Both the position numbers and the translations under genes were made by a program. Under the pieces are notes generated by a model. It made no database searches. It saw nothing but the letters and a program-made list of their open reading frames with translations, and was not told the DNA's origin. 28,202 bases of DNA from a virus, in the IMG/VR virus record IMGVR_UViG_3300025694_000024, positions 1-28,202 of that record; one strand, 5' to 3'. This document shows positions 3,119-28,202 of this stretch, piece after piece (positions within the stretch are counted from its first letter, which is position 1; every line of letters starts with the position of its first letter).

Positions 3119-3874
3119 CTAAGGATAACTTTTCATGACATCACTACCCACTGAGAATAGTTCAACTGGGCTAGTGTTGCTATTTGTTAAAGTAAATTCC
3201 ATGTAATAACCTAGAACACCATGCGATTCTGCAACGCTATTTTTATAAGACATTATAAAATTTCCTTGAACAGGGATGTATGCACCTTGTGCCGAGGCGT
3301 CTACAGTGATCGTAGTAGACGTCATTGCTGTAACATACCCTACTAACTCTGGAGTAGTTTTTGCATATATTGCATCACCTATGCTTAGAATACTTCCTAA
3401 AGGTTCTGTGAATGTTATAACTGTAGCGTTTGCAGGGCCAGCAACTGCTGTTGCAGAACCTAATCCATTTGCAGATCTGAAGTTCCAGTTTATAGTGTCA
3501 GCCTTGCTTCTAATATATGTAAACCATTCTCCCTCTTTCTTTTCAAAGTATGCGCTTGCCATAGATCCGCTGTTTAAATCTGTGTTTAAATCAGTGACAG
3601 TCCAGCTGTCATCACTTTCTAGAGATAATGTTTTAAATAATTTTATATCTAATGTTGGCTTAGGATTAAACACACTAGTAATAGATGATGTTCCTTGAAT
3701 GCCATAATAGTTATTACGCAAAGAGTTAGTATTGTGTTGATATAAATTACCTCCTTTAAAAGAATAGAAGTAACTATTCATGCCAATCATAAAATCTGGA
3801 TAGAAAGTATAGAACGATGGCCAGCCTTTGCTGCCGTCACTATATGATAATGTTTGTAATGTTTCTATCGCCAT
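3119..3874 (-). CDS. Conserved tail structural protein, 251 aa
   Basis: The N-terminal half has the pattern SDGSKGWPSFYTFYPDF, then MNSYFYSFKGGNLYQHN and a later LFKTLSLESDDSW, all rich in aromatic residues and beta-prone. I recall this signature from short-tailed marine phages, where it occurs either alone or fused to the large stabilization/tail-hub protein. Residues about 135-208 form a distinct Thr/Val/Gly-rich insertion (ITFTEPLGSILSIGDAIYAK, then VGYVTAMTSTTITVD) similar in pattern to an insertion in the connector protein at 12502-13497. The gene follows the module-repeat genes by 10 bases, and its start region resembles that of the 782-aa tail-fibre gene. A tail-hub or tail-surface role is likely; the exact position in the particle is unknown. 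Confidence 0.55.
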   Translation of the reverse strand: MAIETLQTLSYSDGSKGWPSFYTFYPDFMIGMNSYFYSFKGGNLYQHNTNSLRNNYYGIQGTSSITSVFNPKPTLDIKLFKTLSLESDDSWTVTDLNTDLNSGSMASAYFEKKEGEWFTYIRSKADTINWNFRSANGLGSATAVAGPANATVITFTEPLGSILSIGDAIYAKTTPELVGYVTAMTSTTITVDASAQGAYIPVQGNFIMSYKNSVAESHGVLGYYMEFTLTNSNTSPVELFSVGSDVMKSYP

Positions 3875-3892
3875 ATCTTTTTATTTAACATA
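3870..3892 (-). repeat. Gene-junction repeat shared with 26818-26841
   Basis: This is the partner copy of the junction at 26818-26841. It follows the module protein ending PQLC; the other follows one ending PALC. Both downstream genes begin with the codons for MAI. Confidence 0.6.
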
Positions 3893-4826
3893 GTTGAGGA
3901 TAACCAAAATTCACAACACCACTGCTGTTTACTTCAATATATTCTCTGTTATTACTTCCAGTTCCAGTTAAATAATAATAACCACCAACTAGAGTGGTTG
4001 TTCCACCAGAATTACTGTAACAAGTATCACCTGTTGCAGGTAATGTACCGCTTCCATCATGGTAGTAAGTTTGATTTGCAGGAGGATTAGATCCGTCGAA
4101 CGGACATACTCCGTTAAAGTTACTCATAGTCGACGAGCTATATGATGTTAATGATGCTGGGCAATTAGTTACTGACGCAACTACACCTGAACCGCCTGTT
4201 ATTTGCATATAAATCCCACTTCCAGTTGTAGCAATTTTATAAAAACCATTACCTAAAACTGTTGTTTTACATAAATCACTATAACATACATCTGTTGCAA
4301 CCGGGGGTTGACCGGAAGATCCGTTATGGTAATAAGTTTGATTTATAGTTGCAGAACACGCATTAGTAGAAGTGGCTTGAACTGAACTAGATGTAAACGC
4401 TATTCCTACTGAAATTGTACCAACACTAGCAACAACACCTGAACCACCTGTTATTTGCATAAACGTAGTTGAAGTTAGCTTATAATATCCATTCCCTAAA
4501 ACATTTTGTCCAGGATCTGAATAACATACGTTAGTTGCAACAGGCGTACTTCCTGAGCCTGTATGGTAATATGTTTGATTTATTGTTGCTCCACATGCAG
4601 CTGACTCGCTTGTTTCTACCGTAGAAGAACTGAATGTTGTACACTCACAAGTATATGTTGTACTTAAAACAGGTGTGCTAGGCGCACCCGTTTGTTGTCT
4701 AAATGTATTGCTAGACGTTTTGTACCAACCGTTTGGAGCCGCTGTTGTCAATGCCGCATTTGTATATATGGCTGTAGCGGTTGCAAAGGAAGTTGTATTT
4801 AAAAAGTAGGTTCCTTGCGTGGGCAT
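3885..4826 (-). CDS. Surface protein made of four TYYH/TYF modules, 313 aa
   Basis: The whole protein is four copies of one module. Copy 1 (residues 1-62) is of the 'TYFLNTTSFATATAIYTN' type; copies 2-4 are of the 'NQTYYHxGSG' type. The shared frame is TYY-x(n)-Y(S/T)(D/N)-x-x-G-x-L-x-x-G-(Y/W)Y, then a short strand ending in I/E, then SGVV and a terminal Cys. The protein ends on the module cysteine (PQLC). Composition is Ser/Thr/Gly/Asn-rich and beta-prone with almost no charge, as in phage adhesins. There is no signal peptide, so it is a virion component and not a secreted protein. It is tandem with a paralogue (4841-5839) sharing its N-terminus MPTQGTYFLN. I do not know a named family. Receptor binding or particle decoration is inferred. 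Confidence 0.65.
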   Translation of the reverse strand: MPTQGTYFLNTTSFATATAIYTNAALTTAAPNGWYKTSSNTFRQQTGAPSTPVLSTTYTCECTTFSSSTVETSESAACGATINQTYYHTGSGSTPVATNVCYSDPGQNVLGNGYYKLTSTTFMQITGGSGVVASVGTISVGIAFTSSSVQATSTNACSATINQTYYHNGSSGQPPVATDVCYSDLCKTTVLGNGFYKIATTGSGIYMQITGGSGVVASVTNCPASLTSYSSSTMSNFNGVCPFDGSNPPANQTYYHDGSGTLPATGDTCYSNSGGTTTLVGGYYYLTGTGSNNREYIEVNSSGVVNFGYPQLC

Positions 4827-5839
4827 TTATTTTATTTTATTTATGGGGCACAATTGCTTATTCCCGCTACATACCCGTCTGTTCCAGTAATATGAATCTT
4901 TTTATCAGTTCCACCATCTTCGTAGTGATAATGTTTTGGATCAGCTACCGCTGTACCTGCTGAGTTTGTAAACATTGTGTCACCTGCTGCTGGATAAGTT
5001 CCGCTTCCATTATGATAGTAAGTTGTTCCTGGCGTTAATGCACATACTCCAAGGAAGTTACCACCTATTGTAGCTGTAAACGATGTTAAACTTGAACATC
5101 CAGTACAACATACATCATCTGCACTTGTTCCTACACATAAGCTAATTGAAGTTGCACAATCTGAACATGTAGTTTGTGTTCCTAAAGTTCCTGTTCCTCC
5201 TGTTACTTCTCTATAAACAATAGCTCCTCCGTTACCAGGGTTAAATGAATAGAATCCATTACTTGCTACTGTAGTTCCGTCAGCAGTGCTATATAATATT
5301 GTTGAAGCTGCAAAAGTTGTTTGGTTCATGTAATATGTACCTGACACACCTGTACAACATCCTATTGCTGCTGTACTACCAAATGTTAACCCTACTGCTG
5401 GGAAACATGTAGCACATGATACTGCTGTGCTTAATCCTGAACCATCGGTTGCGTTACTTGTTTTTTCTCTGCTTTGAGAAGAATATGAATAAAATTGATT
5501 AGCTGCAAAACTACTCAATAATGGGTTTGTATAAATACTTGTTGTTGCTGTAAAAGAAGTTTCTACATAAAATGATGAAGTAGTTCCAGAACAACATGCT
5601 GCGAATGCTGAAGCTCCGTAACCTAAAGTCAAGACAACTCCACATGTAGTACATGCAGCTGAAGTTCCTAGCGTACCATTACCTCCAGTCACTTCTCTAT
5701 AAACATTGTTATTATCCTTATACCATCCGTTAGGAGCAGCTGTTGTTAATGTTGCTTCTGTATATATATTTGTAGCAGTATTGGCATTTCCTGAAGCCCA
5801 AACTGTATCATTTAAAAAATAGGTTCCCTGCGTTGGCAT
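4735..5839 (-). repeat. Duplicated 5' ends of two neighbouring module genes
   Basis: The first 10 codons of the genes starting at 4826 and 5839 encode the same peptide, MPTQGTYFLN, and their DNA differs at only a few positions. The following blocks also align (LTTAAPNGWYK in both), with a short insertion in the 5839 copy. This marks a tandem gene duplication that has since diverged. Confidence 0.7.
4841..5839 (-). CDS. Surface protein made of four modules with CxxC/CC linkers, 332 aa
   Basis: Four module copies are visible: three of the 'TYF/FYV/TYY...TTFAAST(I/L)Y(S/T)' type and a last one of the TYYHNGSG type (about residues 265-330). The first three are joined by cysteine-rich linkers: CTTC then ACC, CATC then GCC, and CSDC then VCCTGC. 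The N-terminal ten residues are nearly identical to those of the next gene, so the pair arose by duplication. The linkers could bind metal or form disulfides in the mature particle; the sequence cannot decide. The gene is preceded by a 60-base gap with a small hairpin, and followed 14 bases later by its paralogue. Like its neighbours, it is low in charge and Gly/Thr/Ser-rich. The function is inferred to be a tail-associated adhesin. Confidence 0.65.
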   Translation of the reverse strand: MPTQGTYFLNDTVWASGNANTATNIYTEATLTTAAPNGWYKDNNNVYREVTGGNGTLGTSAACTTCGVVLTLGYGASAFAACCSGTTSSFYVETSFTATTSIYTNPLLSSFAANQFYSYSSQSREKTSNATDGSGLSTAVSCATCFPAVGLTFGSTAAIGCCTGVSGTYYMNQTTFAASTILYSTADGTTVASNGFYSFNPGNGGAIVYREVTGGTGTLGTQTTCSDCATSISLCVGTSADDVCCTGCSSLTSFTATIGGNFLGVCALTPGTTYYHNGSGTYPAAGDTMFTNSAGTAVADPKHYHYEDGGTDKKIHITGTDGYVAGISNCAP

Positions 5840-5857
5840 AAAGTAATAATTTTATTC

Positions 5858-5905
5858 TTGTAAATTTACAAAAAAAAAATATAATATCCTTAAGGTGGAT
5901 TAAGG
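5858..5905 (-). terminator. Weak hairpin and A/T palindrome in the 60-base gap
   Basis: Reading the minus strand, the stop of the 166-aa gene lies inside the hairpin CCTTAA-TCCACC-TTAAGG (5905-5888). About eight bases later comes a run of T residues (5879-5870), then the perfect 14-base palindrome TTGTAAATTTACAA (5858-5871). The stem is only six base pairs and is separated from the T run, so this may be a weak terminator or a processing site, or have no function. Confidence 0.35.
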
Positions 5906-6400
5906 AGTTACGCAAGGTTCAAGTAACGCTACAAACCCTGTATTGTTTGTAATTCTAAAAAATGTACTTGTTCCAGACGCATTAGTATGATAATAATCAT
6001 TAGCTAAAGGGTTTACACCATTAGCATCAGAGTAGACTAGTTCGCCAGCGGCTGGTATAGTTCCAGATCCGTTATGATAATATGTTTCTGTATAATTAGT
6101 GTCTCCACATATTCCGTTAAAAGTTCCTCCTATTGTTGCAGTAAAAGCAGTGAGTGTTGTGCCGCAACCAACACAGCATACTTCAGATGCTGAAGTAGAG
6201 TCGTAACATAACGACAATGCGTCTCCACAGGTTGGACAATTTGCAGCTGCTTGAAGAATACCATTTACTTGTCTACGAGCAATAGTACCTAAAGAATAAT
6301 AACCGTCAGCAGCTAAAGTGTTTAGCGCTTGATCAGTGTATAAAGAAATTGCATTTGCAAAACTTAATCCATCAAAGTAATATGTTGCTCTTGTTGCCAT
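5900..6400 (-). CDS. Surface protein made of two modules with a Cys-rich linker, 166 aa
   Basis: Module 1 (residues 5-55) begins TYYFDGLSFANAISLYTD; module 2 (about 104-163) begins TYYHNGSGTIPAAGELVYSD and ends at a Cys. Between them is the linker NCPTCGDALSLCYD...SEVCCVGC with six cysteines. The same linker, CYD followed by CCxxC, occurs in the C-terminal region of the 1722-aa protein, so the two genes share an evolutionary unit larger than the module alone. The gene starts seven bases after the 1722-aa gene and is probably co-transcribed with it. Its short size, beta-prone composition and placement suggest a tail-tip or tail-surface accessory protein. The role is inferred; no named family is recognised. 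Confidence 0.65.
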   Translation of the reverse strand: MATRATYYFDGLSFANAISLYTDQALNTLAADGYYSLGTIARRQVNGILQAAANCPTCGDALSLCYDSTSASEVCCVGCGTTLTAFTATIGGTFNGICGDTNYTETYYHNGSGTIPAAGELVYSDANGVNPLANDYYHTNASGTSTFFRITNNTGFVALLEPCVTP

Positions 6401-6407
6401 AATCTAT

Positions 6408-9400
6408 TTAACAATTTTGTAATCCATTTCCGTCTATATCTCCTGAGCCGTCAGTTCCAAACCATACGTTAGCAGCTCCATTAGTTCCTACGCTATATAA
6501 TAACACTATACCTGTAGCAACCGTTCCTGTGTTATCACTATATATAGTAGTTCCAGCACCGTCACTTGGCCCTGTTCCTGATGTAGTATAATATACTTCG
6601 TCTAAAACTCCAGAATACATACACGCTGTTTGAGGGTTTGCTTGTTGCTTAGTGTTGAACGGATAGTAAGTTACCGTAGGGCATGTTACTACCGCATATA
6701 CTTGTCCAGTACCTAAGTTTAAGTTAATAAATTCTGTTGAAGATATTCTGTAGTATCCGTTAGTCAACTTAGTTTGTCCTTGATCTGAATAACAGAAGTC
6801 TCCAGCTTGAGGCGCTGCATTTGCTCCAGTATGATAGTATGTTTGATCTATTGACTGTGTACAGATAGTTGATATTTGCGGATCATTTACACTAGAATTA
6901 AATGCTTTGATCGCACAACTTCCATTACTCACAACCACTCCGCTACTACTAACTTGTATCCACTCATTATTACTTCCCACTTCATAGTATCCAGATTGTA
7001 ATCTTGTGCTTGATGCACTGTCATCGCATGTTGAAGAAGAATAAACAGTATCTCCAATTGAAGGTAATACATTCACACCATCATGATAATATGTTTGACT
7101 TGCAGGCTGTACACACGCTATAGCTATAGAAGCTTGTACTGTGCTTGATAAATATGGTGTACAGAAATCTCCACAACCACAACACGCATCACCAACTACA
7201 CTAGCATCATAACAGAACGAAGCAGAGTTTGTTGTTCTGTAATCGTATATTAAATATAAGTATTGGTTTCCAACAGGTAAATTGATTGAAGATATTGTTG
7301 CTTGATACAATCCACTTGAAGGACTGTTTACAGCTGAGTTTGGCACTGTAGTTGCAGCCGCCAATAACGCATTTATATCGGTACTGTTATTATCGTATAA
7401 AGTGTTTGACGACAGCCATGCGAAATTATCATTATTTACAACCCATGTATAGTCATCAAAATTAATTTTATTTGACCTTACCGTTACGTTAGATCCTGAG
7501 TATGGGTATACACCTATTGATCTTGTTCCTGATTGTATAAAATATTGTGAAGCTATTTGAACGTCTGATCCAAAAGTCATCATGTTTGATGCTACTGGAC
7601 TTGAAATGTTTGCGTCGTCCCATTTAAATTCGTTATGAATAAACTTACCAACATCTTCGCTTGAACTTATACCTACCTGAACCACTACTAAAGAAGTTTC
7701 TGTAGGACAGTTACATGTTATATCATAGTCGGCTGATGGATTTGGTGTAACTGTAACTAAAACAGTTGTTGGATTATTTTTAGTTTTATTAAAATTTAAA
7801 CTTCCACTAGTTGTAGCATCAGTTACTGAAGCTACTTGAGTGCCATCCCAAACCATACTTACACTCATAGTTCCTGACGCAATAGTATAATCAAACACTA
7901 CGTTACCAATTACATTCCCTATTTCTACTGTATATTCTTGAGCGCTTGTAGAGTTTACTAATGATTTTTGTGTTCCACAAGGCAATATTACCGGAGGTAA
8001 TGGTACCGTGTCTCCGTTTGTGCTTAATACATATTCGTCCATGTAAGGATCATAAGCTCCTAGTTTTTGAGTATTTAACTGAACATTAAATTGATCTCTA
8101 AACCATGATCTCATTCCAGTGTCAGATATAACTTCTAACGCATCATTATTAGCTGATGTACCTTTTAATTTTATTACAGCAGTTCTTTTAGTGTCGGTAA
8201 AATACATGTCATAACCCCAAGAACTAAAACTTTCTGGATTATAACTAATACCGTACTCTTCTATTCTAGCTATTTGTGTTCCTAAAACTTGAGGTACTGA
8301 AGCAATTACACCACCACCTGTTGAATCACTAATAAGATTTTTTCCAGTTAACACATAACTAATCTTATCTTCTTGCAATACAAGAATATCTGTTTCTCTT
8401 GAATGCAGTTTCATTATAGGGCCAAAGCTAGTTTCTAAATCTTTATAATTAACCAACCCTAAATTAAACTCATTTAAGTTATTTAAATTAGAATTACTAC
8501 TATAAATACCACTGTATGTTAATTCAGCAAATCTATCTGCTTCTTTAAAATCTTCTTTTGACACCGCTAAAACTCTTTCTCCTAAGTTTACAGCTTGACC
8601 ATCTAATGCATCTAATATTTTATAACTTTCTACTCCGTTTCCAAAAGTGTAACAATTAAAAAACGGTAGCGTTACAATAGCGTCTTGCGTTGCAGTTTGA
8701 GCTTGGTCTCCATCACCATTACCACCCATGTGATAACCACCTATAACGTCATAAGATTCAGATGAATCATAAAATAAATTAGGATCAGCATCAGCAGGTT
8801 TTGTTTCCCAAACAATTAAATTATTAGCTCTAGTAACTACTATCTCAGCTTCCATAAACCAAGTTTTACTTCCGTTAGCACACGCAATTACACCACTTCT
8901 ACAAGCTAAATATAATGGAGAAGCTGCGTCGCCTGGGATTGCTTGCCAAAACTGGAAACTAGGAGTCCATGGCGCCGGACATTGCACAGCTCCAGGACTA
9001 GTAGCGATTGTATTAATGAAAACAGGATTTTGTAATCTTCCATCCCCATCGTCAATAACATCCCCTGCTGCTGGGTTTATAAAATCTCCTTGAAACCAAG
9101 CGTGTAAATCATCATAATCTTGTGAAGCAACATAAGTGTTTTCCCATATATAATCTATACCAGGACAACCGCTTGCATCATGCCTTCCTATTCTCCATTT
9201 TATTTTTACACTAGACTGTGCTGGTATTGTATAGTTATCAGTAACACTATTAGAGTCAGTAGTAAAAGCTGGATACTGTAAATAAGGAGTACAATAAGAT
9301 CTGTTAGTACCTGAAGCAGTTTTTTCACCCGCATCAACAACAGCGTTCGAGTCTAAATTAATACTAAAGTTTTGAGCTCTAATTTGCATATAAAGCCCTG

Positions 9401-11576
9401 CTAGCTGATTAGAATCAGTAGGTGCTTCACCTTCAACTTCTAAAAAATTTGATGATTCAGCGCTAACATCTAACACTTGACATGTAACCTCTCTATTTAA
9501 AGGCCCGCTTGCGTCAGTCTTAACAATTAATATATCACCTTTTTGTACTTTGTTTTGATTATCACCTTCTAGCTTAAAGTATATAACTCTTGTTGTTTGG
9601 CTCTGATAATAAAAACTAGAGTATATTGTCTCATATCCTCCTTCACTTGGTTTTAAAACAAACTTATATTTTGTAGCCCATGCAGGTGGATAATTCTCTA
9701 CATTAACTTTTATTTTATTTTGATCAACAGAAGCAGAAGCTGGAACAAAAGTTGTATTAAACTCCGACACTAATACTGTAGAAGCCCTACCATAATCGTC
9801 CATATATACAATTCCTGTTTCATAATCTCTATTACTATGCAAAGATGATGTGTCTTGACTAGAAGTAAAAGTTCCCTGACCTCTTGTAAAATAAAAATAT
9901 TCATACACATCAGTCGTGCCTGAATTATACTTCATAGCCAACACCTGTAAGGAAAATACATTTGATCCTACTGTAGATCCTATTCTAAAACCTTGTTGTG
10001 TTTGAGAATCTATACTACTGTTTGATTTAGTAAATACACAATTAGTAGGCACTATTGTAACAGTGTTAAATAAGTCTGTTAACGAATTACCTTGAGTCGA
10101 TGTTGCTAGAGGTTGAAAATTAGTATTCAAAACCGTACCAATACGTTCAGCAAATTCTAGTGAATTTACCATTTCATACACTGAAGTATAATCTCTATTT
10201 ACTGGAAATATTACAGATAATTCAAACGGAGTGTTTTCAAATGCTGAGTCATAACACGCATCACCGGTATCTCCATTTAATTGAGAATGTTGTATAAATA
10301 CTGTAAAAGCTAATGAAGATCCTTTGACTAGTCTATTAGCAAAATCACTTAAATCAAAACTAATTTTAGAATTTTGTACAGTTGTGTTTGTGTTAGGATT
10401 TATAGTATATACAGCTCCTGTCGACATTGTTGCCTCTGGCAAGTCGTCAAATAATATATCGTTAGTAAATAATGATGTTGTAAAGTTAATAGGTATATCT
10501 TGTCCAGCTGCATTTATTATATCATACCCATCAGTATAGTTACCATAAATTAACCTATTACCTTGTATTGTTTGAGCTTGTGCAACTTTAGGAACATTAT
10601 CATATAATCTTAATAACTCATCACTTCCTATTACAGTATATATTTTACTGTTTGTAAAAGTATATGTTTGTTTTGAATTATTAGCCCATCCATAGTCAGA
10701 TTTCTTAAACCTTTCTATAACATAAATAGAATTACTATTACTTGGTTTAAATAATAAATCAACCTCAATAACTTTATCTGATCCAGTTTCAAACTGTACC
10801 TCAATAGAGTTATATATATTTTTCATTGAAGCATTATTAAAATTGTTTACATCAAAATCAAAAGGCCCTGGTTGAAAAGCTGCTGTAGAAAACAACGACG
10901 TTGCGCTATATTCATTGTTTACATACCTATATCTATAAGCAAAAGTTATGAATCTAGTTTCTAAATAATTTTCTTCTCCAGGAACGTTTAAAAACTCTAC
11001 GCTTGGCGCAGGCAATGTGTCTAAAGAATCAAACCCTGGTGGTTTTAAAATAACACTAATGTCAGTTTCTTTAATACCATCATTTACCCCTGCCGGATCT
11101 GGATAGTTTTGAGTTACATTTATTTTTCTAGGAGGATTTTTGTCGTCTGTCCAAAAAAGTAAATCTTCTATTTTGTTTACTCCAGTAATTAAAAACTTAG
11201 GATCAAACTTTAATACTTGTTTACTAATAACATGATATGTTATAGCTTGTGATTGTACATTAAAAGAAACAATTAAGTCTAACTTACCGCCTACAACAGG
11301 ATTGTTTGCGTCATGAATAAACCAATATATAGTTTCTTTTGATCCATCTTGATAAGCTCCAATACATATTGCTGAATTAGATAAGTTTTGACCGCCATAA
11401 GCTAATGTAGTTAACTGCGTGTTACCTTTTGAATTTTCTAAAGCACCTATCTCAGTGGTTTCTGTAGATCCTAATCTTACGTTAATTGCATTAACATATT
11501 GGCCTGGAGGAACAAGACGTTCATCAACGCTCTTATTCATTTTACCCGCAACAAAATTTGTATTTACTATCGGCAT
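6408..11576 (-). CDS. Large tail hub / stabilization protein with C-terminal surface modules, 1722 aa
   Basis: The N-terminus NFVAGKMNKSVDERLVPPG, followed by YVNAINVRLGS and GALENSKGNT, is a signature I associate with the large 'stabilization' (tail hub/muzzle) protein of crAss-like and other marine short-tailed phages. The bulk (to about 1190) is beta-rich with many aromatic and Asn/Thr residues. Residues about 1195-1290 look like an inserted Ig-like or jelly-roll domain ending in CNCP. From about 1440 onward there is a different region: a Cys-rich linker (FCYD, then CCGCGDFC) and three TYYH-type modules ending in the final Cys. The protein is long for a hub protein, and the extra length is mainly the added C-terminal modules. 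It probably forms the main body of the tail and exposes the modules at the surface. It starts one base after the preceding connector gene. Confidence 0.65.
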   Translation of the reverse strand: MPIVNTNFVAGKMNKSVDERLVPPGQYVNAINVRLGSTETTEIGALENSKGNTQLTTLAYGGQNLSNSAICIGAYQDGSKETIYWFIHDANNPVVGGKLDLIVSFNVQSQAITYHVISKQVLKFDPKFLITGVNKIEDLLFWTDDKNPPRKINVTQNYPDPAGVNDGIKETDISVILKPPGFDSLDTLPAPSVEFLNVPGEENYLETRFITFAYRYRYVNNEYSATSLFSTAAFQPGPFDFDVNNFNNASMKNIYNSIEVQFETGSDKVIEVDLLFKPSNSNSIYVIERFKKSDYGWANNSKQTYTFTNSKIYTVIGSDELLRLYDNVPKVAQAQTIQGNRLIYGNYTDGYDIINAAGQDIPINFTTSLFTNDILFDDLPEATMSTGAVYTINPNTNTTVQNSKISFDLSDFANRLVKGSSLAFTVFIQHSQLNGDTGDACYDSAFENTPFELSVIFPVNRDYTSVYEMVNSLEFAERIGTVLNTNFQPLATSTQGNSLTDLFNTVTIVPTNCVFTKSNSSIDSQTQQGFRIGSTVGSNVFSLQVLAMKYNSGTTDVYEYFYFTRGQGTFTSSQDTSSLHSNRDYETGIVYMDDYGRASTVLVSEFNTTFVPASASVDQNKIKVNVENYPPAWATKYKFVLKPSEGGYETIYSSFYYQSQTTRVIYFKLEGDNQNKVQKGDILIVKTDASGPLNREVTCQVLDVSAESSNFLEVEGEAPTDSNQLAGLYMQIRAQNFSINLDSNAVVDAGEKTASGTNRSYCTPYLQYPAFTTDSNSVTDNYTIPAQSSVKIKWRIGRHDASGCPGIDYIWENTYVASQDYDDLHAWFQGDFINPAAGDVIDDGDGRLQNPVFINTIATSPGAVQCPAPWTPSFQFWQAIPGDAASPLYLACRSGVIACANGSKTWFMEAEIVVTRANNLIVWETKPADADPNLFYDSSESYDVIGGYHMGGNGDGDQAQTATQDAIVTLPFFNCYTFGNGVESYKILDALDGQAVNLGERVLAVSKEDFKEADRFAELTYSGIYSSNSNLNNLNEFNLGLVNYKDLETSFGPIMKLHSRETDILVLQEDKISYVLTGKNLISDSTGGGVIASVPQVLGTQIARIEEYGISYNPESFSSWGYDMYFTDTKRTAVIKLKGTSANNDALEVISDTGMRSWFRDQFNVQLNTQKLGAYDPYMDEYVLSTNGDTVPLPPVILPCGTQKSLVNSTSAQEYTVEIGNVIGNVVFDYTIASGTMSVSMVWDGTQVASVTDATTSGSLNFNKTKNNPTTVLVTVTPNPSADYDITCNCPTETSLVVVQVGISSSEDVGKFIHNEFKWDDANISSPVASNMMTFGSDVQIASQYFIQSGTRSIGVYPYSGSNVTVRSNKINFDDYTWVVNNDNFAWLSSNTLYDNNSTDINALLAAATTVPNSAVNSPSSGLYQATISSINLPVGNQYLYLIYDYRTTNSASFCYDASVVGDACCGCGDFCTPYLSSTVQASIAIACVQPASQTYYHDGVNVLPSIGDTVYSSSTCDDSASSTRLQSGYYEVGSNNEWIQVSSSGVVVSNGSCAIKAFNSSVNDPQISTICTQSIDQTYYHTGANAAPQAGDFCYSDQGQTKLTNGYYRISSTEFINLNLGTGQVYAVVTCPTVTYYPFNTKQQANPQTACMYSGVLDEVYYTTSGTGPSDGAGTTIYSDNTGTVATGIVLLYSVGTNGAANVWFGTDGSGDIDGNGLQNC

Positions 11577-24074: not shown

Positions 24075-24089
24075 GTAAATATATTACTA
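24073..24089. other. Inverted repeat TAGTAA-N5-TTACTA
   Basis: A perfect six-base inverted repeat around ATATA spans the stop codon of the 120-aa gene. It is too A/T-rich for a stable terminator and has no following U run. It could be an operator-like site or have no function. Confidence 0.3.
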
Positions 24090-24449
24090 TTCTTCAGGCG
24101 GTGCTGGAGGAACTGGGTTATCCCATGTAAAGTATAAATCCTCATCAATAGGATGCTTCTCTAAATCTATTTGCTTAGATAAACTTGCTTCCATATCACT
24201 TACAGGTAGCCCTGCTTTTAACCAGCTAATAACAACATTCTCAAATCCTTCGTCATCTGCGTAAGGAACAAAAGGTGTTGATGGATCGTACTGTAAAGAG
24301 TAAGTTCCTATTTGACTAGCGGTGTATTGCGAGTCTTTGTCGTCTTGTGCGGTATACGTCCAATGTACTGTGTAGATTACGTTTTGATTCCCATCTTCTT
24401 CTATACGGGCGTTCATTTGATTTATTGTCCATTTATAAAAATTTGCCAT
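24087..24449 (-). CDS. Conserved small phage protein, 120 aa
   Basis: The protein starts MANFYKWTINQMNARIEEDG and continues with NVIYTVHWTYTAQDDKDSQY, an alternating aromatic pattern that suggests a beta-sandwich. The C-terminus is acidic and proline-rich (NPVPPAPPEE). I recall proteins with the same 'Y-W-x-I-N-x-M/L...NVIYTVHW' start next to fibre and structural genes of tailed phages, without a known function. It has no transmembrane segment. It is separated from the fibre gene by 24 bases that include an exact promoter-like element, so it may be the first gene of the small-gene/terminase unit. Confidence 0.55.
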   Translation of the reverse strand: MANFYKWTINQMNARIEEDGNQNVIYTVHWTYTAQDDKDSQYTASQIGTYSLQYDPSTPFVPYADDEGFENVVISWLKAGLPVSDMEASLSKQIDLEKHPIDEDLYFTWDNPVPPAPPEE

Positions 24450-24473: not shown

Positions 24474-26822
24474 TTATTTATTTTTTAATAATTCTATTTC
24501 TGCTTTTAGTTCTTGTATTGACTTAACTAGTAAGGGAACTATTTTAGAATAGTCAACAGTTTGGTATGATGGCCTTTTGCCATATTCAGCTTCTTTAATT
24601 AAATTATGATCATCATCATATTTTGCCTCTTTAACCACATGGTCTTTTTCATAATCTTTATCACCACCAACAGCTTGAGGTAAAACTTCTTGAAGCTCAT
24701 GTGCCATAACCCCATAGCCTCTTTCATTACTTATTTTCCATTTAAAATCATATACAGGTATTTTACTTATCACCTCTAACCCACTAAAACTTTTTAAATC
24801 TTCTTTTAATCTATAATCAGAACTTGTTGTGAATAGAGTTGCAGAACCGCTTGTTTGTATTTTACCAACCGCACCATTTGGATTAAAATATTCTTGTAAA
24901 TCAGTTAATGCCGTAGAATTACTTCCTTGACACAAAGTCATTCTTGCTTTAGAATCTTTTTTAAATGCACTTCCTGAATTTTGAGTAGCACTAGCGACTT
25001 CTAAATCTCCAAATATTACACTACCGGTATTAAACGTCATTGAAAACCCATTTGAAACACCCCCATTAGTTTGTTGAAAATATTGCCTAACATTTCCAGC
25101 GGTTACATATTCATCCATTTCTAATCTAAAACTAGTACTTGTACCACTATAGTTCCATATTTGATAAGGTATACTTGATTTTTTTGTTACAATTAAACTT
25201 GCGGCCCCTGAATGATTACCACTAGTATCAGGAATTGCAACATACCCCCCAGATGTTATACGCATTCTTTCTTGATTAGTAGGCGTATTTCTAAATACTA
25301 TATCTTCTGTGTCAGCAAATATTTCAGCTCTTTTAGTTGTGTTAGTCCAAAACTCTAAACTACCTCCACCACCTGTATTTCCTCTTAATGCTATTTCAGC
25401 CCAACCACTAGACGCTTGTATATCTAATTCTCTTGAAGGCGAATTCGTTCCGATCCCGACGTTGCCGCCGTTAAAATATGAATCACCATCAGCTCTAACT
25501 AATACTTTAGTTGTTGCACCTTTGCGTAACCATAAAGAACCTTCATCTCCAAAATATTGTTCTAATGATGCTATATTCCCTGAAGCCGTATGAATCTGTA
25601 TTCCTGATGTTGCAGACCCAAACACTTTCACGTTAACATTAGTTGTTCCATCACCAACTTGAAGCTTTGAGCTAGGCGAAGTCGTCCCAATCCCGACGTT
25701 GCCGGAAGCACCCAAAACAACTAATCTTGAATTTGTATTATGTGTTAAATGAAATACAGCGCCTCTATTTTCTAATCCAATAGGAGTATCTCTTGAATCA
25801 TTTAATATCAATCCAACAGAACCTCCGTGTTCTATTTCTAAAACTTTATCTAATGAGTTTGGATTATCAACATTTGTGTTTCCAATAATTACGTTACCGT
25901 CTTTATCTATCCTCATTCTTTCTTGAATACCGGCACCTCCGGGAGCAGTCCAAAATCGCAAATTACCGGCATTGTTAGCGGCTTGTCTATTAGCACTTAT
26001 CATTGCAGTTCGTGTACCGCCTGCACCAAAAGAAAGTATACCATAGTTTTGCCCTTCGGCATCAACGCTTGGCGCCAGTAGTTCTATAGTACCCGCATAA
26101 CCCGCAGTAGTACCACCCATTACAGTTAAAACTTTATAACCATATCCTGTTTGGTCAGGCGTTTCAGTTCCAATTGCTACATTTCCTCTGTCTAAAACTA
26201 AATTATTGGTATAATAAGTTCCAGCATATCGTGTTACAAACTCTAAGACATTTTCACTGCCTGAATTTCTCCATGTCATTATTCCTTTATAATTAGTGTC
26301 AGTATCACTTACCGCAACACTAGGATCTGAAGCATTTAAAACAGTAACAGAAGGCCCTTTAAATGTAGAGGCACCACCGTTTTCTATCTCTAAAATATCC
26401 AAACCATTTCTTCCAATTCTAAATTTACCAGATGCACCTATATTTTCTATAAACCAAGTGCTGTTAGTATATGTTGTGTTTGAAGATCCTAAAAAAATAG
26501 CTGGTCTACCTGCCCCAAAAGTTCCTATTTTAACTTCATCTACCGAACTGCTGGCAGCGGACGTATTAGATAAATTTGTAAACGTAGTGCCTACAGCTGT
26601 TAACTGTATTTTGGTGTCACCAGATCTTTGTATAAGAAAATCTCCACCTACCACATTTAATTTATCATAATACCCTTCGAGATAATTACTAGAATTATAC
26701 TTAACTTGTAACAATGCATTTGATGTTGTAGCTTCTGTTAATATTCTATCGCCAGCATTAACTTTACCTGAAGTAGTTATATCTCCTGTTATATTTTCGC
26801 TACTTAATATTCTTATTGCCAT
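24474..26822 (-). CDS. Tail fibre with C-terminal S74 intramolecular chaperone, 782 aa
   Basis: The N-terminus MAIRILSSENITGDITTSGKVNAGDRI is a common start for phage fibres. The body is a beta-rich repetitive shaft with many 'GNVGIGT(T/N)SPS' units that fit a trimeric beta-helix. The C-terminal 115 residues are an S74 peptidase/intramolecular chaperone domain: the catalytic dyad is S668-K673 in SDYRLK, followed by the GYGVMAHELQEVLPQAV pattern, an acidic insertion and the helical end IVPLLVKSIQELKAEIELLKNK. In S74 proteins such as endosialidase and L-shaped fibre, the domain trimerises the fibre and then cleaves itself before the Ser. It most likely recognises a surface polysaccharide or protein of the host. 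It starts 11 bases after the small module protein. Confidence 0.8.
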   Translation of the reverse strand: MAIRILSSENITGDITTSGKVNAGDRILTEATTSNALLQVKYNSSNYLEGYYDKLNVVGGDFLIQRSGDTKIQLTAVGTTFTNLSNTSAASSSVDEVKIGTFGAGRPAIFLGSSNTTYTNSTWFIENIGASGKFRIGRNGLDILEIENGGASTFKGPSVTVLNASDPSVAVSDTDTNYKGIMTWRNSGSENVLEFVTRYAGTYYTNNLVLDRGNVAIGTETPDQTGYGYKVLTVMGGTTAGYAGTIELLAPSVDAEGQNYGILSFGAGGTRTAMISANRQAANNAGNLRFWTAPGGAGIQERMRIDKDGNVIIGNTNVDNPNSLDKVLEIEHGGSVGLILNDSRDTPIGLENRGAVFHLTHNTNSRLVVLGASGNVGIGTTSPSSKLQVGDGTTNVNVKVFGSATSGIQIHTASGNIASLEQYFGDEGSLWLRKGATTKVLVRADGDSYFNGGNVGIGTNSPSRELDIQASSGWAEIALRGNTGGGGSLEFWTNTTKRAEIFADTEDIVFRNTPTNQERMRITSGGYVAIPDTSGNHSGAASLIVTKKSSIPYQIWNYSGTSTSFRLEMDEYVTAGNVRQYFQQTNGGVSNGFSMTFNTGSVIFGDLEVASATQNSGSAFKKDSKARMTLCQGSNSTALTDLQEYFNPNGAVGKIQTSGSATLFTTSSDYRLKEDLKSFSGLEVISKIPVYDFKWKISNERGYGVMAHELQEVLPQAVGGDKDYEKDHVVKEAKYDDDHNLIKEAEYGKRPSYQTVDYSKIVPLLVKSIQELKAEIELLKNK
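25453..25467 (-). repeat. GC-rich microrepeat encoding GNVGIG (copy 1)
   Basis: A 15-base segment, atcccgacgttgccg on the plus strand, recurs exactly at 25690-25704 and with one change at 27886-27900. Eleven of 15 bases are G or C in a strongly A/T-rich gene, whereas other copies of the same peptide motif use A/T-rich codons. Confidence 0.7.
25690..25704 (-). repeat. GC-rich microrepeat encoding GNVGIG (copy 2)
   Basis: This copy is identical to 25453-25467 and lies at the start of another shaft repeat of the same fibre gene, followed in the protein by TTSPSSKLQV. Confidence 0.7.
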
Positions 26823-26841
26823 ATCTTTTTATTTTAACATA
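26818..26841 (-). repeat. Gene-junction repeat shared with 3870-3892
   Basis: The junction between the small module protein and the 782-aa fibre matches the junction between the 313-aa module protein and the 251-aa tail protein almost base for base: the terminal Cys codon TGT, stop TAA, the A-rich leader AATAAAAAGAT and the start ATGGC. The only difference over this stretch is one extra A. Homology also continues weakly into the module end. Confidence 0.6.
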
Positions 26842-27316
26842 ATGCTGGGTAACCTGAGTCCACTATTCCTTGATTTGATGATATTTTTATATACGATCTG
26901 TTGCCTAACCCAGTCGCTGAATTTATATTATAATAACCTGCCAGTAAAACTGTATTTCCTGCTGCGTCAGAAGTGCATCTATCTCCTGCTGCCGGTAGAC
27001 TGCCACTACCATTATGGTAATACGTCTGCGATAATCCAGGGTTTGATCCATTAAATGGACACGCCTGGTTAAACACTCCCATCACTGAAGATGAGTATGA
27101 TGTAGTTGTAGGAAAACTTCTTCCATAAAACTCAGAAAATTTATGTGGCGCAACCTGATTTACAGGAGGACTAGCAGTTGCATATATTTTAACCAATGAT
27201 CCTGCCGCTGGCGTTGATGCTCCAGCCAACTTAGTGTTAGCTGTATTACCTGCTCTAGACGCTTCTACGTTTATCATATTTGCCGATATTGGATTTCCTG
27301 GTTGTGGTAATGCCAT
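26834..27316 (-). CDS. Small fibre-type protein with one TYYH module, 160 aa
   Basis: The N-terminal part MALPQPGNPISANMINVEAS and the later HKFSEFYGRSF match a start I associate with phage receptor-binding or tail-tip proteins ('LP..G.IS...IN.E...', then 'FSEFYG'). This section presumably attaches to the particle. Residues about 75-160 are one copy of the module found in the 3885-7200 cluster, introduced by YSSSVMGVFNQACPFNGSNP and ending GYPALC. It is closest to the last copy of the 313-aa protein, which has the equivalent PFDGSNPPANQTYYHDGSG. The gene sits 4 bases after one S74 fibre and 11 bases before the next. It probably provides a small accessory adhesin. This is the clearest link between the module and host recognition. 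Confidence 0.6.
   Translation of the reverse strand: MALPQPGNPISANMINVEASRAGNTANTKLAGASTPAAGSLVKIYATASPPVNQVAPHKFSEFYGRSFPTTTSYSSSVMGVFNQACPFNGSNPGLSQTYYHNGSGSLPAAGDRCTSDAAGNTVLLAGYYNINSATGLGNRSYIKISSNQGIVDSGYPALC
26837..27100 (-). repeat. Remote copy of the TYYH surface module
   Basis: This is the fourteenth module copy, about 20 kb from the main cluster. It contains TYYHNGSGSLPAAGD, then AGYYNI and the terminal Cys. It is fused to an unrelated anchoring N-terminus, showing that the module is mobile between protein contexts. Confidence 0.65.
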
Positions 27317-27320
27317 TATT

Positions 27321-28202
27321 TTATTTATTTTCTAATTCTTTTACTCTTGCTTCTAATTCTTGTACTGCTGCAACTAACAATGGCACTAACTTAGCTTGAT
27401 CTATACCTTGTGGTACAATACCACCTTCTTCATCAACTTCATCTTTTTCTCCTACAATAGCCTCAGGAACTATATCTTGTACTTCATGCGCTATAAATCC
27501 ATCTACTACCTTACCAGGTTCTTCTATAAAATTAAATCTACTTGGTTTTAATTGATTAAGTCTAGATATAGACTCACTTATTGGAACAATATTTTCCTTT
27601 AGTCTATAATCAGAACTTGTAACGTATGAAGTTGCTGAACCAGATGTAGATATTCGCCCTACATAAGCTTGACTTGTTCCTGGATTTTTATGGTAAAATT
27701 CTATTTGATTAGTTCCAAATTGATTGCTACCAAACATCATTATATTTGCAGCTGCATCAGGAACATAAAACATACTATTTCCGCCACTTGCAAAAAAGTT
27801 ACTTGCAGCAAATCTAGCTGTAAATGCATTAGTAACTGTGGTTGTAGGCCCAGTATGTAAAGTTGTTTGTGGAGAAGTGTTACCGATCCCGACGTCGCCG
27901 CTTGGAAGCATAACAAGTTTTTGAGAACCTGCTAATTTAATTTCCATTCCTCCATTGTTAAGCCCAGTTATAAAAGGATTTATATCTACAGCATTTCCTG
28001 ATCCAAAATTTGTATTTAATCTTAATGTGTTTACGCCAGCGCCTCCGCTAAGTGTTTTAATTTCTAAATTAGCACCAGGCGTAGTCGTTCCGATTCCTAC
28101 GTCCCCACCAGCTGTAATACGCATCTTTTCTGAAAAAGTAATAGTATCCCCAACACTAGAGGGCAAACTAGCACTACTCCATGCAAATATGCCATCCTCC
28201 AT
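27321..28202 (-). CDS. Second S74 tail fibre, C-terminal 293 residues (partial)
   Basis: The reading frame is open to the right edge; the Met codon at 28200-28202 is probably internal, so the true start is outside the window. Visible shaft sequence includes GGDVGIGTTTPGANLEI and a second DVGIGNTSPQTTLH unit. The S74 chaperone domain begins after TSGSATSYVTSSDYRLKENI; in visible numbering the dyad is S197 and K202. The pattern then follows the family: VVDGFIAHEVQDIVPEAIVG, a short acidic insertion, and LVPLLVAAVQELEARVKELENK. The domain is shorter than that of the neighbouring 782-aa fibre and lacks its insertion. It is likely a homotrimeric receptor-binding fibre that self-cleaves during maturation. 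Confidence 0.8.
   Translation of the reverse strand: MEDGIFAWSSASLPSSVGDTITFSEKMRITAGGDVGIGTTTPGANLEIKTLSGGAGVNTLRLNTNFGSGNAVDINPFITGLNNGGMEIKLAGSQKLVMLPSGDVGIGNTSPQTTLHTGPTTTVTNAFTARFAASNFFASGGNSMFYVPDAAANIMMFGSNQFGTNQIEFYHKNPGTSQAYVGRISTSGSATSYVTSSDYRLKENIVPISESISRLNQLKPSRFNFIEEPGKVVDGFIAHEVQDIVPEAIVGEKDEVDEEGGIVPQGIDQAKLVPLLVAAVQELEARVKELENK
27886..27900 (-). repeat. GC-rich microrepeat encoding GDVGIG (copy 3)
   Basis: This differs by one base from the two copies in the neighbouring fibre, a change that turns Asn into Asp. A fourth, more diverged copy is near 28089-28108. Its presence in a different gene argues for exchange between the fibres or strong codon conservation. Confidence 0.6.

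Follow-up and report, generated by a model that had tools for sequence, protein, structure and literature searches.

Small repeated beta modules at the split muzzle gene and the fibre locus of a crAss-like phage: candidate host-binding parts

The viral DNA analyzed here (28,202 nucleotides, IMG/VR record IMGVR_UViG_3300025694_000024; hereafter the window) carries a row of neighbouring genes filled with copies of a small repeated module. To which particle protein do these copies belong, how are they gained and exchanged, and what could they do for the phage? CrAss-like phages rank with the most abundant known phages, yet their host recognition is poorly understood, and the environmental members are little studied. 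The original prediction, made from the letters alone, described about 13 copies of one roughly 60-residue module and a further copy between fibre genes.

Module copies in the window

Fourteen module copies (nine of subtype T1 and five of subtype T2) were placed letter for letter, all on the minus strand, as are the muzzle and tail-fibre genes described below. The copies fill three genes (A, B, and C), the end of a 1722-aa protein, and part of one fibre-locus gene (E). Gene A (3885-4826, 313 aa) consists of the T2 copy A1 (4641-4820) and three T1 copies, A2 (4404-4640), A3 (4161-4403), and A4 (3888-4148), the last being an exchanged terminal slot (see below). Gene B (4841-5839, 332 aa) holds three T2 copies, B1 (5642-5833), B2 (5405-5638), and B3 (5156-5395), and the T1 copy B4 (4850-5086). 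Gene C (5900-6400, 166 aa) is composed of C1 (T2, 6227-6394), a Cys-rich linker, and C2 (T1, 5912-6151). Residues 1473-1722 of the open reading frame at 6408-11576 are formed by the T1 copies D1 (6915-7160), D2 (6681-6908), and D3 (6411-6671). The remaining copy, E1 (T1, 26837-27103), was found where it had been predicted, in gene E (26834-27316, 160 aa), which lies between two S74 tail-fibre genes and encodes a fibre-locus adaptor with one T1. The main module span, 3888-7160, matches the predicted 3888-7200.

Each copy was scored in a leave-one-out HMM test, giving 18.7-80.9 bits against shuffle maxima of 8.6-17.0 (1000 shuffles per copy). As all shuffles were exceeded, the copies are true repeats, and T1 and T2 share a common ancestry. 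The predicted number of copies was thus confirmed, but not their uniform size: T1 modules are 76-89 aa long and T2 modules 56-80 aa, or 56-64 aa without the Cys-rich stretch preceding B2 and B3. The consensus of T1 is sFssSxxxxxxxxaCxxxxxqTYYHxGsGxxPxxgdxvysdsxgttxlxxGyYxxxxxxyixvxxxGvVxxxxxC and that of T2 is xxTYYhdGsxfxxatxxYtdxxltTxaxnGxYxxxxxxRxxxggxGvlxxxxxCxxC. The terminal Cys, said to be shared by the copies, is generally present, but A2 lacks it; D3 is a divergent T1. The low charge was borne out by the composition (K+R 2.4%, D+E 5.3%, S/T/N/G/Q 49%, Cys 3.5%). Of the 151 T1 rows extending to the module's end, 148 contain both the first and the last Cys, and a disulfide between these two residues is plausible; tail parts of crAss001 are disulfide-stabilised (PMC10172136). 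No repeat was seen at the module region in a DNA tandem-repeat search, so the copies have diverged at the DNA level.

A Cys-rich linker of the form CxxC...LCY......CCxGC recurs at 6152-6226 (gene C), 5087-5155 (gene B), and 7161-7220 (muzzle). It is located between a T2 and the following module or, on the muzzle, ahead of D1, and may form a small knot held by disulfides or a metal. The linkers were modelled by AF2 with low confidence.

Block-mean pLDDT was about 79-94 for the T1 of gene C; for D1-D3 it was mostly about 75-90, with 57-77 where D3 ends. In the two models, C2, D1, D2, and D3 share one strand order of short beta strands with one short helix. Unrelated folds, which would have spoken against a common module, were not seen, and the copies align significantly with each other, in agreement with the proposal of a beta module amplified and shuffled on a tail protein (D1-D3) and on free-standing proteins (genes A, B, and C). 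Pfam searches with the module proteins gave nothing above cut-off, and the BACON families (PF13004, PF19190) had no match in any module protein of the window. Foldseek with gene C returned no significant relative from the PDB (best E 0.88); among viral predicted structures, matches included gp62 of phage phi17:1 (rmsd 2.0, 90 columns, E=5e-5). A weak sequence-profile match in the PDB, to Mitsuba-1, a designed lectin (E=0.013), was treated as chance.

The muzzle and its interruption

The 1722-aa protein (6408-11576) had been taken for a tail hub; it is instead the N-terminal chain of a crAss-like muzzle (phrog_14478, E=1.6e-245), and tblastn matched it to Cellulophaga, Flavobacterium, and MW202828 genes at the muzzle position. 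Its conserved body (residues 1-1185) is followed by inserted beta domains (about 1186-1468) and the three T1 copies. The C-terminal chain is a 251-aa protein with a gene of its own (3119-3874; Pfam crAss_MUZ_C, E=3.3e-13), whose family maps onto residues 1195-1371 of crAss001 gp44 (hhalign, E=1e-7). Judged by sequence, the 1722-aa and 251-aa proteins together are the crAss-like muzzle. They correspond to crAss001 gp44, which, unlike the pair in the window, is one chain and carries no modules. In crAss001 the muzzle is a hexamer at the tail tip (PMC10172136). The adhesive coat of the original prediction is not supported: the only firmly placed copies are those of the muzzle, at the tail tip.

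The interruption site was placed, by alignment to the contiguous muzzles of Elemovirus and Calle, at approximately 8010-8024 (minus strand). The insertion begins after '..DPYMDEYVLS', at about residue 1185, and the alignment breaks between '..YDPYMDEYVLS' and 'TLSYSDGSKGWPSFY..'. When the profile of the contiguous Elemovirus and Calle muzzles was aligned to crAss001 gp44, it crossed the break point (E=2.6e-5), and the split site corresponds to about residue 1192-1199 of gp44; the N-terminal muzzle profile gave no significant alignment to gp44 (E 0.04-0.1). In crAss001 this region lies after the crass domain, in the C-terminal part completing the propeller, and the published length variation of gp44 concerns the crass and IG2 regions (PMC10172136), whereas the insertion in the window is in the conserved C-terminal part.

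Among the relatives read, a one-chain muzzle was found only in Flavobacterium phage elemoF (Elemovirus, L169; 1493 aa) and Cellulophaga phage Calle_1 (Callevirus, L170; 1324 aa); the muzzle is encoded by two genes in the window, MW202828, and phi13:2. The muzzle genes are separate and cut at one site in 57 of the 57 loci holding both parts as separate open reading frames, a count that includes the window and a few loci that are the same contig fetched twice. Every split locus but phi13:2 has at least one module at the end of the muzzle chain or within the gap, and most have module genes in the gap. Phage phi13:2 (L168, 4150-8991) has a split muzzle and a gap without modules. In its insertion a Big_9/cadherin Ig domain is found instead, so surface-type domains of more than one kind can be accommodated at the site. 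A fold search with the muzzle insertion gave generic beta-sandwich matches only (TM mostly 0.1-0.2). Two observations go beyond the original prediction: the module genes occupy the split between the muzzle halves, and T1 is also the variable C-terminus of fibre-locus proteins in other, unrelated phages of marine flavobacteria.

Module exchange and the fibre locus

Comparison of copy number between close relatives had been suggested as a check, and the number does vary: 13 in the window clade, 14 in locus L158, 16 in L029, and 8 in the L102 clade, with an overall range of 3 to 16. Most relatives have three modules, namely a T1 ending the muzzle and a T2 and a T1 that start and end the next gene. 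The extra modules in gene C of L029 duplicate the A2-A3-A4 block of gene A (70% identity over 244 aligned residues, 80% over 679 nt), and this block copy is supported by a module tree built on few columns and with many open forks. Between the window and L024, DNA identity is 92% in gene B, 73% in gene C, 68% in A2-A3, and 79% in the muzzle body; this contrast points to recombination of gene B. In the tree, A4 of the window groups with the fibre-locus module of L113, and A4 of L023 and L029 is of a different type, grouping with other fibre-locus modules. Within the window, A4 and E1 are 59% identical, which is above the identity of A4 to any other copy. Compared with L023, the T1 and most T2 modules are 51-78% identical, the muzzle body 87%, and the T2 modules A1 and C1 82-85%. 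Module gain by block copying, gene-level recombination, and exchange of terminal modules with fibre-locus types are shown at the level of sequence.

Gene E is flanked by a gene for a tail-fibre protein with a C-terminal S74 chaperone (24474-26822; Pfam Peptidase_S74, E=1.2e-11; PHROG tail fiber families) and by one for a second tail-fibre protein with an S74 chaperone (27321-28202; Peptidase_S74, E=4.3e-11), which may run off the window end. A 120-aa protein with a Pfam DUF7936 match (E=1.4e-18) is encoded near the fibre genes at 24087-24449. Gene E has a C-terminal T1 beside a tail-fibre gene and matches PHROG 21885 over its T1 part (E=9.5e-6), from profile position 62 only; the alignment of its adaptor with the one in phi18:1 gp62 is poor. 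PHROG 21885 is a family of unknown function (phi18:1 gp62, phi17:1 gp62, and Calle_1 gp016), the C-terminal half of which is matched by genes A, C, and E, and the members tested end in T1. What the family describes is a fibre-locus protein made of an adaptor and one T1; it covers neither T2 nor the arrays at the muzzle.

A DNA motif scan of viral contigs yielded 78 stretches, 72 of them with T1 by HMM. Many T1 in crAss-like contigs are in small proteins near terminase and fibre genes, with an N-terminal adaptor and a single T1. The module almost always forms the C-terminus and is often the only copy, as in fibre-locus proteins of about 100-160 aa. L117 has an S74-like tail fused behind T1 (Pfam E=0.0018, which does not reach the cut-off). 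In L096 and L138, a T1-like stretch is contained in longer proteins ending in VYYANGILTHN, which resembles a Hint/intein end. The motif scan of 84,980 bacterial and archaeal genomes, which misses divergent copies, gave six matches and no true T1 by HMM. Gene A had no match among phages in tblastn, and the consensus T1 query found named phages. Those with a C-terminal T1 are the Helsingorvirus siphophages phi17:1 and phi18:1 (gp62 in both), phi12:1 (gp61), phi38:1 (gp086), and Calle_1 (gp016), in each of which the T1 gene adjoins a tail gene; in phi38:1, an S74 fibre gene, the T1 gene, and a tail gene again follow one another.

The gp62 proteins of phi17:1 and phi18:1 are 85% identical in the first 60 residues and 32% in T1, and the flanking genes share 96-97% of their DNA. 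The host on record is C. baltica #17 for phi17:1 and #18 for phi18:1. Phage phi18:1 infects 2 of 19 strains, of which only Cba18 is infected well and Cba17 a million-fold less (PMC11946311). Phages phi12:1 (host #12) and phi18:1 have identical T1 and different recorded hosts, so T1 alone does not set the host strain. While gp62 of phi18:1 is annotated as hypothetical, its neighbours gp59-61 were seen by MS/MS. Genes A-C of the window would give few tryptic peptides (low K/R); such a composition could explain why gp62 has no MS/MS annotation, and does not show that it is present. In Maribacter phage Molly, gp062 (Molly_1, L184, 3501-3956) has the adaptor of T1 proteins (52% over 55 residues) joined to a BACON domain (PF13004, E=3.1e-10) and no T1, and the gene adjoins an S74 tail protein. 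The T1 HMM gave about 0 bits on this protein, with the BACON part unmatched.

Proposed role and related systems

The modules are most readily read as exchangeable host-surface-binding parts at the tail tip and the fibre locus, a reading to which a probability of roughly two in three is given. They would be small, probably disulfide-stapled beta domains displayed on the muzzle and at the fibre locus, and the likeliest ligands would be glycans or other molecules on the outer surface of a Bacteroidota host. The muzzle gene is interrupted at one conserved site, between two neighbouring beta strands of the C-terminal conserved part. Its upstream half terminates in T1, its downstream half forms a protein of its own, and the space between them is usually taken by one to three module genes. 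The two halves would re-associate in the virion; in a hexamer as in crAss001, about 18 T1 copies would be placed on the muzzle ring, and the free module proteins may ride on the tail tip. The constant exchange of modules would reflect adaptation to host strains. Binding is favoured over spacing or docking because of the C-terminal position, the fast divergence beside a constant adaptor, the exchange between muzzle and fibre locus, and the replacement by BACON. Adhesion was proposed in the original prediction as an inference, and such a role appears better grounded now, because BACON replaces T1 behind the same adaptor in Molly. BACON domains themselves are not proven carbohydrate binders (PMC6949934).

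The modules might alternatively be mainly structural, as stalk or spacer units (the role ascribed to bacterial BACON domains) that make the tail tip longer or stiffer, while the binding is done elsewhere, e.g., by the S74 fibres. T1 and T2 do stand in tandem, and Ig-like repeats are common spacers in tails. A linker role is also suggested by the one BACON crystal structure cited in PMC6949934. This explanation is considered unlikely: a spacer that is nearly always C-terminal and often single would carry nothing, and T1 is the divergent part beside a conserved adaptor in phi17:1 and phi18:1. Still less probable is docking inside the virion, in which the T1 of muzzle, accessory, and fibre proteins would plug into a common partner or into each other via disulfides. 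The presence of the same module at two loci, the Cys-rich linkers, and the disulfide-stabilised tail parts of crAss001 (PMC10172136) fit such an arrangement, but a docking face should be conserved, and most T1 in orthologous slots are 51-78% identical to those of L023 compared with 87% in the muzzle body, and are swapped as well; in addition, T1 is found in siphophages with no muzzle gene in the stretch read.

The free proteins A, B, and C could also act outside the virion, being produced inside the infected cell or set free from it, e.g., to block receptors on lysed debris or to act against superinfecting phages. There is no proteomic support for these three proteins in any virion so far, and some Helsingorvirus T1 proteins adjoin lysis genes. 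Their genes, though, are flanked by those for the two parts of a conserved tail protein, and one set of T1 is built covalently into the muzzle, which makes this explanation very improbable. The reading as host-surface-binding modules can be extended, more tentatively and with the odds somewhat against it, to the split site as a cassette in an essential tail-tip gene: the halves would assemble, the exchangeable receptor-binding array would trade parts with the fibre locus, and the tail tip, in addition to the fibres, could thereby follow changes of the host.

No named system of this kind was given in the original prediction, but related BACON/Ig repeats on crAss-like tails are known. Tail-associated tandem beta domains that grow in crAss-like phages by duplication and horizontal transfer have been described for BACON (PF13004/PF19190; de Jonge et al. 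2019, PMC6949934). Like them, T1 and T2 are small beta domains that recur on tail-associated proteins in crAss-like phages, and in Molly BACON sits in the T1 slot behind the same adaptor. Unlike BACON repeats, they belong to a different sequence family with a conserved Cys pair, are located at the muzzle split, and alternate between two subtypes across several adjacent genes. The T1/T2 family, a muzzle split at this site, and module genes housed in the split were not found in the literature searched, mostly without subscription papers.

If the proposed reading is true, it would provide a named module, a profile with which to find it, and cultured models in the Cellulophaga phages phi17:1, phi18:1, and phi38:1. 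The muzzle would have a site at which large insertions and a break of the chain are tolerated, and host-recognition parts would be linked between podophages, siphophages, and, via BACON in the same slot, other flavophages.
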